Source of the DNA: Megasphaera paucivorans
GTDB taxonomy: Bacteria; Bacillota; Negativicutes; Veillonellales; Megasphaeraceae
Length of the DNA stretch: 53,527 nt
NCBI RefSeq assembly: GCF_900103535.1
Contig: NZ_FNHQ01000019.1
Coordinates: forward strand, 1-53,527
Direction of reading: 5' to 3'
The translations under genes and the position numbers were made by a program. Positions within the stretch are counted from its first letter, which is position 1; every line of letters begins with the position of its first letter. The notes beneath the pieces were generated by a model that worked only from the letters and a program-made list of their open reading frames with translations, was not told the origin of the DNA and made no database searches. Below, piece by piece: positions 15,645-38,062 of this stretch.

Positions 15645-15774
15645 CTTTTTGGCAATATGTTTTAATATTAAAATATGTAGTAAAATACACCAAAAATGCT
15701 CTTGCATTATGTATAAGAATAGAGAGCGTTAGCATAACATAGGAGATTTTGTCTTTACGGGGGGAATAATTAAT

Positions 15775-16998
15775 ATGAATATTAAACAGTGTGTACATGA
15801 TAATGTTGATGAAATCGCTGACTTACATCAGTATTTTCATATGTATCCGGAATTATCTACAGAAGAGTTTCGCACGATGGAATATATTCAAAAAAAGTTA
15901 AAAGAGTACAATATTCCATCAGTACATATAGAAAATGGCGGAATATTGGGGATTATTGATAGTGGTAAACCGGGGAAAACATTATTGTTACGAGCGGATA
16001 TAGATGCTTTGCCAATTACAGAATCAGACATTAATATATCAAAACAAAAAAAATATATATCCCAGAATAAAGGAATTATGCATGCTTGTGGGCATGATGG
16101 TCATACGGCAATGCTGTTAGTGGAGGGGAAAATATTACAAGAAAATCATAATGAATGGGAAGGTAAAGTAGTATTGATGTTTGAAGAAGGCGAAGAAAAC
16201 GGCAGCCGGTATTTGCTTCAATTTTTTGCATATTTTGAGAAGCATGCTATTCATATAGATGGATGCTACGGTACACATGTCAGATGGGATATTCCTTCGG
16301 GAAAAATAAGTATTATAACTGGGCCGGCAATGGCAGGTGTATTTGCTTTTGATATTACATTGATGGGAATTGGCGGACACGGTTCCCGGCCTGATTTGGC
16401 TGTTAATCCGATTGATTGCTTTGCAGCTATTTATAACGGAATCAATACTATCCGTATGCGGAATATATCTCCGCAGCATTGTCTGACTGTATCTATAGGA
16501 AAACTTAAAGGTGGTGATCGGATAAACGTGATATCTGATATGCTGGAATTTGGGGGAACTGTACGATATTTTAATGAAAATGATGGCCAGCAGTTTAAAG
16601 AAAATTTAGAACGCATTCTAGAAAATGAATGCAGCAATTTTGGCTGCCGATATATCGTCAATAAAAAATCCTTGAATTATGTTTTGCGCAATAATGAAGA
16701 TTGTGCCAGAATTGCTTGTAATGCAATTGCAAAGGACTTGGGAGAAGATGTTTTATATGCGGGACAGCCTTGGATGGCTTCAGAAAGCATGGCTCTTACA
16801 CTTCGGGTATATCCGGGTGTGTTTTCATTTACTGGTATTGCTAATGCGGAAATTGGCAGTGGAGCCAATCATCATACAGCCGCTTTTGATATAGATGATG
16901 CAGGATTGGCGACGGGAGTTGCTGCGGCTATTGCCTACTCTTTGGCATTTTTGGCGTATACACAGCCTATTTCTTTTACGGCGCAATCTATAGAGTAA
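15775..16998 (+). CDS. M20-family amidohydrolase (N-acyl amino acid / peptide hydrolase)
   Basis: 407 residues, normal for M20D hydrolases (hippurate, IAA-amino acid and N-acetyl-amino acid hydrolases). Metal ligands and catalytic residues are visible: HACGHDGHTAML (His103-Cys105-His107), FEEGEENGS (catalytic Glu pair), GTHVRWDIPSG, the dimerisation-domain motif GGHGSRPDLAVNPID and the final ANHHTAAFDID. The Cys in HACGHDGH is typical of the M20D subgroup. The start has GGGGGG about 11 bases upstream. It is monocistronic between two hairpins. The exact substrate cannot be inferred. Confidence 0.9.
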   Translation: MNIKQCVHDNVDEIADLHQYFHMYPELSTEEFRTMEYIQKKLKEYNIPSVHIENGGILGIIDSGKPGKTLLLRADIDALPITESDINISKQKKYISQNKGIMHACGHDGHTAMLLVEGKILQENHNEWEGKVVLMFEEGEENGSRYLLQFFAYFEKHAIHIDGCYGTHVRWDIPSGKISIITGPAMAGVFAFDITLMGIGGHGSRPDLAVNPIDCFAAIYNGINTIRMRNISPQHCLTVSIGKLKGGDRINVISDMLEFGGTVRYFNENDGQQFKENLERILENECSNFGCRYIVNKKSLNYVLRNNEDCARIACNAIAKDLGEDVLYAGQPWMASESMALTLRVYPGVFSFTGIANAEIGSGANHHTAAFDIDDAGLATGVAAAIAYSLAFLAYTQPISFTAQSIE

Positions 16999-32986: not shown

Positions 32987-34381
32987 TTATATATTTTTTT
33001 TATTATTCCGGACAGAGGGAGATTTGCAGGCCGTCCCTTTAGGTGATGATCCGCGGGCTAATGAAGCAAATATTCCGATAAAACAGGTAAAAGAAAGAAT
33101 AATAAAGGACCAATGAACACCCTGCGTAATCGCTTGTTCATAACTACTCAAATACATTGTTGTATGGGAAAAAATTAAACTTACTACAGCCATACTGATC
33201 GCTTGCCCTAATATTCGCATCAGGGCTAGGACGGAAGACGCAATACTATGTTGCTTTTCTGGCGCCGCAGTTAGAATGGCACTTGTATTAGGAGTTACAA
33301 AAAGTGCGGCACCTATACCTAAAAAAATTAAAAGCAATATTGTCAAAGGAATTGAAATATTCGGTAAAAACGCAAATAAAAATAAGCAGGAAGCAGTAAG
33401 TGCCATTCCCGTGGAGGCAATATATCTAGGTTCATGTCGATCTGCTAAAGAGCCGGCTCTTGTTGAGCAGATCGACATTGTGATCGGATGAATAAGTAAA
33501 ATAAAACCGGTACTGGCTGCATTGAGATGTAATACCAGCTGCAGTTGAAAAGATAGTAAAAATGTGATTGCATAGGTAGCACTATAATGTGCTAGTGAAG
33601 CTAAATTAGACATGGAAAACGCAAGATTATGAAATAGGGATAGAGGCACAATGGGGTAGGAAATTTGTTTTTCATGCCAGAGAAATACGGTAATTAAGGC
33701 AAGGCCTGTAAAAAACATATACTTTCCTACTAATATACTGTTAAAAGCGGATAACCCATATATGGTGCAAATAATAGCAGGCATACTGAGTAGACTTCCC
33801 GTCCAATCAAACATTGTTTCTTGTTCGCCGAACCATTCTTCCTGTATGGATGCCATGCAAATATAGGCGAAAAATAACGCGAAAAATGAGAAAAAGAAGA
33901 CAGCACGCCATGATACATATTGTGTCAAAATGCCGCCGATGAAAGGACCAGCGGATAAGCCGAGATAGGTAGAAGCAGAACTGATTCCGATAACCTTGCC
34001 TTGTTCTGATGGATGACTTTCCAGCAAAAGCGGCAGATAAGAAGCGAAGACCAAAGATAATGCAATTCCTTGAAAGGCGCGAAAACCTGTTAGCAGAAAA
34101 ACTGTCGGAGAACATGCAGCACCTAATGTAAAAATGGCAAAAGCAACCACTCCAATCATAAAACTGCGGCGGCGCCCTAATGTGTCAGATAATTTGCCAC
34201 AGGGTAAAAGAGTGGCGGCGGTGCTGAGAAGGAATACCGTTATGATCCAGCTAAGCTGAGTAGCGGGTACAGCAAATTCGGAAGCCATTGTAGGAATAGC
34301 AACGTTAATAGAACTAGCCATAAAGGGACCGACGAAACAAGTGGTACAGGTTGCTATAAGGATGCGTCGGGAAGTATTCAT
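32987..34381 (-). CDS. MFS drug exporter, DHA2 (14-helix) type
   Basis: 464 residues with about 14 hydrophobic segments. The motif PCGKLSDTLGRRRSF follows helix 2, and helix 5 carries the exporter motif GLSAGPFIGGILTQYVSWRAVFF. The family (QacA, EmrB, LfrA) exports hydrophobic drugs or toxic metabolites with protons. Its ATG overlaps the kinase stop codon by four bases, so it is the third gene of a regulator-kinase-exporter operon and is probably induced by that two-component system. Confidence 0.88.
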   Translation of the reverse strand: MNTSRRILIATCTTCFVGPFMASSINVAIPTMASEFAVPATQLSWIITVFLLSTAATLLPCGKLSDTLGRRRSFMIGVVAFAIFTLGAACSPTVFLLTGFRAFQGIALSLVFASYLPLLLESHPSEQGKVIGISSASTYLGLSAGPFIGGILTQYVSWRAVFFFSFFALFFAYICMASIQEEWFGEQETMFDWTGSLLSMPAIICTIYGLSAFNSILVGKYMFFTGLALITVFLWHEKQISYPIVPLSLFHNLAFSMSNLASLAHYSATYAITFLLSFQLQLVLHLNAASTGFILLIHPITMSICSTRAGSLADRHEPRYIASTGMALTASCLFLFAFLPNISIPLTILLLIFLGIGAALFVTPNTSAILTAAPEKQHSIASSVLALMRILGQAISMAVVSLIFSHTTMYLSSYEQAITQGVHWSFIILSFTCFIGIFASLARGSSPKGTACKSPSVRNNKKNI

Positions 34382-35823
34382 ACTATAGCCTCATTTTCGG
34401 TGTAAATTGGAAAAATAGCTATCACGGTGGTGCCCTTGTGAAGCGTACTTTCTAATTGCAATTTTGCACGATTGCTCTTAGCAATGTATTTAGCAATGGA
34501 AAGTCCCAATCCAGAGCCTCCGGTTTCTTTTGTTCTGGATGAATCCACACGATAAAACCGTTCAAAAACACGATGCAAATCTTTTTTCGGAATACCAATT
34601 CCCGTATCCCGCACTTTAAAATATACCTTGTTTTCTTTGATTTCGCAGGATAAATATATGAACCCTTCAGCAGGAGTATATTTAACAGCATTATCAATAA
34701 ATATGCGCAGCATTTGTTTTACGCTGCCTGGTTCGGCATAAATTAATGCGGATTCGTTTTTTTCAAGAATAATTGCAGGGTGTTCCGATATAAGAGATGA
34801 TGCGTTATATACTTCTTGCAGCAGATCGGCGGAGTCAGTCATTACAAAGTGTTCAGATAACGTGCCGCTGTTAGAGCGAGCAAAAAATAACAAGCGTTCA
34901 ATGAGTTGTCGCATGTAGTTTGTCTCTGATTTAATTGCTTCGATACCTTCTGACAGTGTGTTAGGATCATTTTTTCCCCAGCGATCCAGTAAATCTACAT
35001 AGCCAGAAATGACTGTAATAGGCGTGCGCAGTTCGTGAGATGCATTGTTGATGAATTGCTGCTGCTGTTTATATCCATATTCAATGCGATCCAATGCTTT
35101 ATTAATAGTCAGGGCCAAATCGTAAATTTCATTTTTTTCGCTGGATAATGTAATACGTTTACCTAATTTATTTACTTCAATATTTTTTAATGTATCCCGA
35201 ATTGTATTTAGAGGAGCTAAGGATTTTTTCATGACATAAATGCCGGAAAGAATCGTTAGTACTAAACTGATAAGGATAGAAGCTAACAGCTGTTTTGATA
35301 AAAGTGTGAGAAATGCGTTTTCTCTTGCGGCCCGCCGGGAAAAACGCAGATAATATCGCTGGCCGAGGGAATCGTCCCATTGGCGGTAATAGGAAAATCG
35401 GGTAGATTCATTTCCTTGTATGGTGTCAGGCAGCGATTGGGTCGTGTTATGTTCAATATATTCATCAATATAGCGATCGCTTAATTGTTTGACTGCATAC
35501 GTGGGACTGTTGTCGAGAATCAGTTTTCCTGATGCGTCATACACTTGCAAATTAGTAAACGGCGGCAGTTTGGAATAGATAAAAATAGAGGTATCCATTT
35601 TTTTATGAGCATCTAAGTAAGATAGTGTTGTTTTGGAGCCCGATAACAAATCTTTGCCAATAGAGTCTGTTATAATGTAATGGACGCTGGTCACTGTGAT
35701 AATTGAAACAATCAGCAAAATTGAAAAAACGATGATTGAATATAATAACACCATGCGGGCAAAAATAGGTAATGGGGATATAGAAAATATACGATGCAGT
35801 TTTTCGTTAATCTTTGGCCACAT
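34378..35823 (-). CDS. Sensor histidine kinase
   Basis: 481 residues. TM1 at about 22-47 and TM2 at about 177-198 enclose a roughly 130-residue extracytoplasmic sensor. HAMP follows (200-250), then the H-box NNASHELRTPITV (His263) and the ATP-binding N, G1, F and G2 boxes (FIDNAVKYTP, DTGIGIPKKDLHRVFERFYR, GGSGLGLSIAKYI). It overlaps the end of the response-regulator gene by 17 bases. The signal is unknown; the linked MFS exporter suggests a cell-envelope or drug stress sensor. Confidence 0.93.
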   Translation of the reverse strand: MWPKINEKLHRIFSISPLPIFARMVLLYSIIVFSILLIVSIITVTSVHYIITDSIGKDLLSGSKTTLSYLDAHKKMDTSIFIYSKLPPFTNLQVYDASGKLILDNSPTYAVKQLSDRYIDEYIEHNTTQSLPDTIQGNESTRFSYYRQWDDSLGQRYYLRFSRRAARENAFLTLLSKQLLASILISLVLTILSGIYVMKKSLAPLNTIRDTLKNIEVNKLGKRITLSSEKNEIYDLALTINKALDRIEYGYKQQQQFINNASHELRTPITVISGYVDLLDRWGKNDPNTLSEGIEAIKSETNYMRQLIERLLFFARSNSGTLSEHFVMTDSADLLQEVYNASSLISEHPAIILEKNESALIYAEPGSVKQMLRIFIDNAVKYTPAEGFIYLSCEIKENKVYFKVRDTGIGIPKKDLHRVFERFYRVDSSRTKETGGSGLGLSIAKYIAKSNRAKLQLESTLHKGTTVIAIFPIYTENEAIV

Positions 35824-36490
35824 ATCCGACGCCTCGGATCGTAAATATATATTTTCGTCCTACTGTTTCATCAATTTTACTGCGAAGGTATCGAACATAG
35901 ACATCGACAACATTTGTATCACCGATATAGTCATATCCCCAAACTTCTTCTAAAATGCGGTCACGCGTCAGTACGATATTTTTGTTGCGCACTAAATAGG
36001 CTAACAGTTCAAATTCTTTTTTAGTCAGTGTAAAAACATCATTTTCTATCTGTACTTCATGTCGGTCTAAATATAAAATCATATTTTGCAGCTGGAGAAA
36101 ATTTTCACTTAATCGTTCGGAACTGCGTTTTCGCAGTAAAACCCGGATACGGGCAAATAATTCTCTGCTATTAAAGGGTTTTGTCAAATAATCGTTAGCG
36201 CCTAAATCCAGTCCAGCTACTTTTGTTTCGATATCATCTTTTGCAGAAAGAATCAGAATAGGGACGGCTGACATTTCACGAACTCGTTGACAAATACTGA
36301 GGCCGTCTATATCGGGCAGCATGATGTCTAAAAGAATTAAATCAAAATGGTCTTGGCCTATGCGATCTAAAGCGCCAGTTCCGTTGTGTTCGATAATGCA
36401 GTCATAGCCTTCGTGCTCTAATTCAAGCTGCAGAAAGCGGCCAATCCGTTTTTCGTCTTCTACAATTAATACGCGATCCTTAATATTCAT
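35807..36490 (-). CDS. OmpR/PhoB-type response regulator
   Basis: 227 residues from the ATG at 36490, which has AGGAGG 8 bases upstream. The receiver domain has the acidic pocket VEDEKR, the phosphoacceptor LILLDIMLPD (Asp55) and the Lys in YLTKPFNSRELFARI. The C-terminal half is a winged helix (LTKKEFELLAYLVRNKNIVLTRDRILEEVWG, DVYVRYLRSKID, IRGVGYVAK). It is the first gene of the operon with the kinase and the exporter. Confidence 0.93.
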   Translation of the reverse strand: MNIKDRVLIVEDEKRIGRFLQLELEHEGYDCIIEHNGTGALDRIGQDHFDLILLDIMLPDIDGLSICQRVREMSAVPILILSAKDDIETKVAGLDLGANDYLTKPFNSRELFARIRVLLRKRSSERLSENFLQLQNMILYLDRHEVQIENDVFTLTKKEFELLAYLVRNKNIVLTRDRILEEVWGYDYIGDTNVVDVYVRYLRSKIDETVGRKYIFTIRGVGYVAKD

Positions 36491-36645
36491 TAATAAAGCC
36501 TCCTGCGATATAGATATAGAATTAATCAATTATATACACCATTATACATGAAGTATGCGTTTTTTGATACTCTAATTTGCTTATTAGTAATTATAGATTG
36601 GTTAAAAATAAAAACAAATTTTAATCAAATTTTAATTTTTAAACA

Positions 36646-36674
36646 ATTTACTTTTTGAGTATTTCTGTTACAAT
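36646..36674 (+). promoter_or_regulatory. Extended -10 promoter of the candidate small RNA
   Basis: TACAAT at 36669-36674 is preceded by TG at 36666-36667 (extended -10), with TTTACT at 36647-36652 as -35 (16-base spacing). Transcription would start around 36680. The 150 bases upstream, back to the response-regulator start, are AT-rich and hold no gene. Confidence 0.55.
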
Positions 36675-36679
36675 AGACA

Positions 36680-36830
36680 CGTAGAAAGAATAATCTACGA
36701 CACGTTCAAGATATAAGTTGTTCAATACCCCTCGAACACCCCTATCTTATATCTTGCAACATTGAGGTACTGTCTTCCCCCGATAGTATCTTACATTGAA
36801 AGGATCAGCTCCCCTCGCTGGTCCTTTTTT
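36680..36830 (+). ncRNA. Candidate small RNA with four hairpins and C-rich loops
   Basis: No open frame is visible. Hairpin 1: CGTAGA / TCTACG (36680-36699). Hairpin 2: CAAGATATAAG / CTTATATCTTG (36707-36756), holding an inner stem TGTTC / GAACA with loop AATACCCCTC and a second CCCC at 36739-36742. Hairpin 3: TACTGTC / GATAGTA (36768-36788) with loop TTCCCCC. Hairpin 4, the terminator: AAGGATCAGC / GCTGGTCCTT (36800-36826) with loop TCCCCTC, then T6. The repeated exposed CCCC(U) elements resemble the anti-Shine-Dalgarno loops of trans-acting Gram-positive sRNAs such as RsaE or LhrC. It may be an Rfam class known from Negativicutes that I cannot check. Confidence 0.65.
36800..36830 (+). terminator. 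Terminator hairpin of the small RNA
   Basis: A 10-bp stem (one G-T pair) with loop TCCCCTC, followed by TTTT after the pairing T's. Confidence 0.85.
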
Positions 36831-36941: not shown

Positions 36942-37397
36942 ATGAAATTATTAGATGATACTATACTTCGTAATATTGGAGCATTGTCCCGAAGTATTCA
37001 CTCCATTAATGATATTTATTTTAAAAAATATCATTTACAGCGAAGTCAATTTATTTTTCTTACAAGAATATGTGAAAATCCGGGGATTAATCAGATTTCG
37101 CTTTCTAATATGCTGAAAGTGGATAAGGCAACGACGACCAAAGCGGTACAGAAATTGATGGCGGAAGGATATGTAACAAAAGAACGCAATGCTTTTGATA
37201 AGCGTGAATGGAACTTATATCCTTCAGAAAAGGCAAGACAGGTATATATACCTATTATTGCTGAAGAAAATCGGGATATTGCTATTTGTTTCTCCGGATT
37301 TAATGATGTTGAGCGTCAAACTGTTTGTACATTATTGGAACGAATGACAAACAATATAGGACAAGAATGGAAAAAATATAAAAGTTATAAGGTATAA
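36942..37397 (+). CDS. MarR family transcriptional regulator
   Basis: 151 residues. The HTH is INQISLSNMLKVDKATTTKAVQKLMAEGYV (about residues 45-75), followed by the wing KERNAFDKREWNLYPSEKA. The first helix contains RNIGALSRSIHSINDIYFKKYHLQRSQF, as in the family. GGGGAGGAA precedes the ATG; its GGGG core is complementary to the CCCC loops of the neighbouring small RNA. A GNAT acetyltransferase gene starts 19 bases after its stop, so the two form an operon. Confidence 0.88.
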   Translation: MKLLDDTILRNIGALSRSIHSINDIYFKKYHLQRSQFIFLTRICENPGINQISLSNMLKVDKATTTKAVQKLMAEGYVTKERNAFDKREWNLYPSEKARQVYIPIIAEENRDIAICFSGFNDVERQTVCTLLERMTNNIGQEWKKYKSYKV

Positions 37398-37974: not shown

Positions 37975-38003
37975 TTGACTTTTTTATTATTTCGTGCCAT
38001 AAT
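37975..38003 (+). promoter_or_regulatory. Strong promoter of the ferredoxin gene
   Basis: TTGACT at 37975-37980 and CATAAT at 37998-38003, 17 bases apart; the leader is about 50 bases and ends in GGAGGTGA. Confidence 0.75.
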
Positions 38004-38062
38004 GAGAATGATCAAGGGAAGGGTAACTTTTCCTACGAAATATTTTTTGGAGGTGAAATGAA

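Follow-up and report, generated by a model that had tools for sequence, protein, structure and literature searches.

The 53,527-nt stretch of Megasphaera paucivorans DNA analysed here (the window) carries a gene for a small RNA with a predicted transcript of about 150 nt (36680-36830, forward strand). The RNA belongs to an undescribed conserved family, of a functional kind that is already known: small RNAs with C-rich loops that are linked to a two-component system (TCS). Taking all lines of evidence together, we consider it probable that this is a stand-alone RNA that acts in trans under the control of a TCS, and that it would do so by blocking Shine-Dalgarno (SD) sites of the GGGG type. The view of the original prediction that the segment is a discrete small RNA gene is now strongly supported by its conservation, by covariation, by a promoter and terminator of its own, and by the lack of any Rfam match.

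The segment 36680-36830 folds with a minimum free energy of -55.4 kcal/mol, compared to a mean of -34.1 kcal/mol (sd 3.9) for shuffled sequences (z = -5.46), and none of 200 shuffles folded as well. All four stable hairpins that had been predicted are present in this computed fold. Hairpin 1 (36680-36699) is formed by GTAGA and TCTAC; hairpin 2 (36704-36760) is a near-invariant core with ACCCCTC (36727-36733) inside a 10-nt loop and CCCCTAT (36739-36745) as a bulge; hairpin 3 (36763-36793) has the loop TTCCCCC (36775-36781), which is invariant, on a stem that covaries; and the terminator hairpin (36798-36830) has a 12-bp stem reaching to 36828, with TCCCCTC (36810-36816) in its loop and a T run behind it. 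The three C-rich loops are those named originally, while the number of CCCC elements had been put at five and is in fact four: stretches of at least four Cs begin at 36728, 36739, 36777 (five Cs) and 36811. Three of them lie in hairpin loops, and the one said to sit between stems (36739-36742) is found instead in the internal bulge of hairpin 2. The C-runs nevertheless exceed chance; at least four are found in only 20 of 90,586 overlapping 151-nt windows from 453 kb of the same genome, and dinucleotide shuffles of the RNA hold 1.0 on average. The redundant C-rich motifs are exposed in loops or the bulge and invariant across relatives, with the exception of the terminator-loop run, which is lost in one relative (G006).

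Judged on its sequence alone, the gene has its own promoter and an intrinsic terminator. The extended -10 element that had been noted ahead of the RNA is TGTTACAAT (36666-36674, forward strand), and its TGnTA is kept in all 13 genomes that carry the RNA; upstream of it, the alignment places a weak -35, TTTACT (36647-36652, forward strand), inside an invariant ATTTAC(T/A)TTT block. At the other end, the predicted terminator is there as a hairpin followed by a T run. A terminator in this position, together with a co-oriented ferredoxin gene downstream at 10 of 10 loci compared, could also mean that the RNA is a riboswitch-like 5' leader or attenuator, in which the terminator decides on read-through into the ferredoxin gene or into a nearby MarR-family gene. 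We regard such a role as quite unlikely, because the ferredoxin gene has a separate promoter and the terminator arm has no competing segment. The ferredoxin promoter is conserved (TTGACA-17-ATAAT; in the window TTGACT-17-CATAAT, 37975-38003, forward strand), and upstream segments pair with the 5' arm of the terminator at only -3.8 to -7.4 kcal/mol, against -15 to -21 kcal/mol for the terminator itself; since none pairs comparably, nothing points to an antiterminator. In the window, MarR and GNAT genes also stand between the RNA and the ferredoxin gene; the terminator stem has changed freely in sequence by compensation, and the invariant positions are loops, with no pocket-like junction. Neither an exclusive antiterminator nor a dependence on read-through was found at the RNA locus.

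The ferredoxin mRNA has a short leader (38005-38060 in the window, and likewise in relatives), which often contains a small G-run/C-run hairpin whose sequence varies between species, for example GGGGTCTTCCCC in M. cerevisiae. This hairpin might act as a decoy for the C-rich RNA or be its partner.

Searched for at the DNA level and then with a covariance model made from the matches, the RNA was found in 13 of 17 Megasphaeraceae genomes, the 13 being species-level; their E values of 1e-37 to 1e-44 are from a model built from the 13 sequences themselves. Family members without the RNA are G007, G009, G012 and G015. Conservation is distributed unevenly over the molecule: loop 3 (UUCCCCC) is 100% invariant, and loop 1 and the bulge reach 94-98%. 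Lower averages are seen in stems 3 and 4 (85-88%) and in the linkers (71%). The proposed check for covariation across relatives gave a clear answer, in that compensatory changes on both sides keep the pairing in 10 of 46 stem pairs (21 cells); shuffled controls averaged 4.1 pairs and 5.9 cells, with none of 500 as high, and slid controls never exceeded 4 pairs or 6 cells. Invariant loops on compensated stems indicate that the structure is kept as the stem sequence drifts, and that selection holds the C-rich letters. Such loop invariance and covariation, along with the conserved promoter and the spread over 13 genomes, essentially refute the idea that the segment is without function, a set of chance hairpins next to a bidirectional terminator of the regulator operon.

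Outside the family the RNA has no evident relatives. The suggested Rfam search (Rfam 15) gave no match at the gathering score in the window and nothing overlapping the RNA up to E = 10; phage and viral collections gave no match either. When the core was used as an exact query against one genome per species (84,980 species), nine records were obtained; eight are labelled Megasphaera (for instance M. cerevisiae DSM 20462 and M. massiliensis NP3) and the ninth Veillonellaceae bacterium Marseille-P2974. Among 300 genomes sampled from Negativicutes there were no credible homologs outside Megasphaeraceae, and weak matches only. Weak covariance-model matches were rejected where their sequence is partly that of a long protein-coding ORF, at its end (L062, L063), where a T-box leader lies next to them on the other strand (L059), where they belong to a different C-rich RNA family (L060, L061), or where they resemble the RNA only in an ACCCCU motif and the terminator (L064). 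In the literature on small RNAs in Megasphaera and Negativicutes, we found no description of a trans-acting sRNA.

Two features that the original prediction did not include, a TCS and a conserved tandem repeat upstream of the RNA, suggest how the gene may be controlled. Its divergent neighbour encodes a response regulator of the OmpR/PhoB family (35807-36493, reverse strand; Pfam Response_reg and Trans_reg_C), the proposed controller, followed by the partner sensor histidine kinase (34378-35823, reverse strand; HisKA and HATPase_c, with HAMP just below the Pfam cut-off). An ortholog of the regulator is present in 13 of 13 RNA-bearing genomes, adjoining the RNA in 11 and located elsewhere in two (G004 and G006), where TCS and RNA are unlinked and far apart, yet both still present. 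The kinase ortholog is found in 12 genomes, every one of which bears the RNA; in the thirteenth carrier, G010, the regulator is present and the kinase is lost in a run of N. On that contig (L091/L065) a long N run extends from inside the response regulator onwards, which also gives rise to a spurious open frame of 5510 aa. G010 might be mistaken for a carrier with a broken TCS; as its regulator merely runs into N, it is uninformative on TCS integrity. The four RNA-less genomes show no kinase match, and their best regulators are 50-52% identical, with no clear ortholog. The co-occurrence of TCS and RNA is significant by Fisher's test (p = 0.0004, without correction for phylogeny), with few independent events behind it, the four RNA-less genomes being small and perhaps related; because the genomes are related, we take the co-occurrence as supportive and not as proof.

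The tandem repeat, TTTAATC-N4-TTTAATT, lies at about -61 to -44 (36620-36637, forward strand) and is kept in 13 of 13 genomes, directly 5' of the ATTTAC(T/A)TTT block, with the consensus TTTAATC-N4-TTTTAAT and slight variation in the second half. Its mean column identity is 0.88, against 0.67 farther upstream. In G004 and G006, whose TCS is unlinked, it is found at the RNA promoter and is absent upstream of the regulator gene, so that the repeat belongs to the RNA. CovR sites have a tandem ATTARA-N5 arrangement (PMC8893699), and the reverse complement of the repeat, ATTAAA-N5-ATTAAA, has the same layout and spacing. We infer that the neighbouring regulator may bind the repeat, just 5' of the weak -35, and that the OmpR-type TCS, divergently encoded in most genomes, would control transcription of the RNA, most likely as an activator.

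The most serious rival to this proposal is that the RNA is indeed a C-rich trans-acting sRNA, with another factor in control: the repeat would then bind some other regulator, or be an UP-like A+T element. AT-rich repeats of this pattern are common in the source genome, where a regulon search gave 92 sites against 75 for the reversed control and the top sites formed no coherent set; the TCS is not adjacent to the RNA in G004 and G006, and the co-occurrence could stem from shared ancestry. Set against this are the 11-bp periodicity of the repeat, its CovR-like half-sites and its fixed place in 13 of 13 genomes, as well as the retention of the TCS wherever the RNA occurs, unlinked cases included, and we judge control by another factor to be unlikely, though not negligible. 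A perfect TTTAATC-N4-TTTAATC is also found at L016:1501-1518 (G000:C54:25606-25623, reverse strand), upstream of a -10 element, TGATACAAT, that precedes an AddB-like gene (identity judged from sequence); this may be a further site of the same regulator.

The combination of a TCS and C-rich motifs has precedents. The LhrC RNAs have three redundant C-rich motifs, each able to bind lapB, the SD of which is covered, and their transcription requires LisR (PMC4132741). LhrC1-5 of Listeria monocytogenes (LisRK) share with the Megasphaera RNA the link to a TCS (here a predicted one) and redundant C-rich motifs in loops, that of the terminator included, and in single-stranded segments, but they differ in being multicopy and in having two stem-loops and UCCC as their motif, whereas the Megasphaera RNA is single copy and has four hairpins and CCCC. 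The streptococcal csRNAs (CiaRH) have an OmpR-family regulator, a tandem NTTAAG-N5-TTTAAG of 11-bp period, a terminator and SD-complementary sequences, and thereby the same promoter logic as the repeat of the Megasphaera RNA (PMC3091779). Their pairing is done by an unpaired stretch complementary to the SD and AUG; the Megasphaera RNA lies divergent to its TCS and has a repeat of its own, as no CiaR-type NTTAAG-N5-TTTAAG was found in the 13 genomes, which have TTTAATC-N4-TTTTAAT instead. RsaE, RNAIII and SprD of S. aureus and FsrA of B. subtilis are UCCC-type RNAs of low-GC bacteria that bind the SD (PMC4132741); the motif here is CCCC, and cmscan detects no relationship in sequence or structure. 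The mycobacterial 6C/B11 RNAs have C-rich hairpin loops that pair with G-tracts in 5' leaders, the loops of B11 being interchangeable (PMC10470900). They share the C-rich hairpin loops with the Megasphaera RNA and differ in phylum and in having two loops, and the Rfam search gave no match here. To our knowledge, 6C/B11 has no linked TCS. By analogy with these systems, the best explanation appears to be that the Megasphaera RNA works like LhrC and the csRNAs, yet is a homolog of neither.

If transcribed, the RNA of about 150 nt would display ACCCCUC, CCCCUAU, UUCCCCC and UCCCCUC in the loops and bulge of its four hairpins, and the invariant C-runs would pair with GGGG-type SDs, not with the canonical AGGAGG, so that translation is blocked. 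The pairing of C-rich loops with G-rich ribosome sites, part of the original prediction, is plausible in the light of the known RNAs, and the sensor would then probably switch off genes with G-rich ribosome-binding sites through the RNA. Target prediction covered 453 kb of the source genome (a 400-kb sample plus the window) with 423 genes, which were named by their sequence. Among the strongest predicted duplexes are those with rel, with genes for an ammonium transporter and an RND pump, and with an M20 peptidase gene at 15775 (SD GGGGGG); the genes behind the G-rich sites at 15758 and 48032, both suggested earlier as possible targets, are in the top 20 of this sample. The third suggestion, the adjacent downstream MarR-family gene with its GGGGAGG (36942-37397, forward strand), is weak: about 40 other genes of the sample have a better predicted pairing, its SD in the sister species G001 is AAAGGAGA, and the two genomes of the window's genus are the only ones with the gene at this locus, as it was not found in the other nine neighbourhoods checked. 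For the last two reasons, we reject it as a conserved target.

The SD of rel is GGGGG in 8 of 13 RNA-bearing genomes (leader of this type: AGGGGGAA) and canonical AGGAGG in the other five, while the four RNA-less genomes all have AGGAGG and none GGGGG. Over the whole family (rel at L122:1545-3743, reverse strand; orthologs L228-L244), GGGGG is thus found in 8 of 17 genomes, the others having AGGAGG or similar. With a background of 3.9% of genes with GGGGG, a Fisher p of 0.08 for rel against RNA presence, and a choice that was ascertained because two genomes had already shown G-rich rel leaders, rel is a candidate and not a finding, and we name it as a target tentatively; no target conserved in all 13 genomes was found, the SD of rel being canonical in five. 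On a broader scale, GGGGGAA-N(2-8)-ATG occurs 29-75 times per RNA-bearing genome, above the reversed-pattern control in each, and the excess per Mb averages 14.2 in RNA-bearing against 3.7 in RNA-less family members (p = 0.006). Since some outgroups that lack the RNA (G018, G034) are likewise rich in such sites, this overlap makes the enrichment suggestive only, not proof. AGGGGTR-type SD sites, the type complementary to loop 1, showed no enrichment over control.

Identical loop motifs in repeat are also typical of RNAs that titrate proteins (CsrB-type), and the repeated motifs seen here resemble these, so that the RNA might bind a protein, or sponge another RNA, via its C-rich loops instead of blocking mRNAs. 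The known protein-titrating motif is GGA, and the loops here carry CCCC. Moreover, the C-rich loops of LhrC and B11 have proven mRNA partners (PMC4132741, PMC10470900), and G-rich SDs are abundant in the genomes with the RNA; we see little likelihood in a protein or sponge function, and favor the blocking of G-rich SDs.

An unrelated C-rich RNA of about 210 nt was observed downstream of enolase in another Negativicutes family (L104:1520-1740; G214:C16, about 92973-93193). Its loops and linkers hold six or more CCC(C) stretches that hardly vary; it also has a terminator and a conserved CRP/FNR-like palindrome, TGTGAC-N6-TACA, 5' of its -10, and is present in 14 of 14 genomes searched of its genus (g46, family f14); two loci tested gave no Rfam match.

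As two unrelated C-rich families occur in different families of Negativicutes, a general layer of control by such RNAs may exist in this group. We offer as a speculation, and a rather unlikely one, that C-rich sRNAs form such a layer and that the envelope-type TCS described here resets a regulon marked by a GGGG-type SD code, the (p)ppGpp enzyme Rel included. With the Megasphaera RNA, a design known from Listeria and Streptococcus, C-rich loops driven by a TCS, would be extended to diderm Firmicutes. The anatomy of the RNA is clear, it has a candidate regulator for which the site is defined, its target rule (the GGGGG SD) can be tested, and it is carried by culturable species, M. cerevisiae DSM 20462 and M. 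massiliensis, Megasphaera-type organisms being gut and brewery bacteria. The RNA could reveal what decides, in these cells, whether a canonical or a GGGG-type ribosome-binding site is used.
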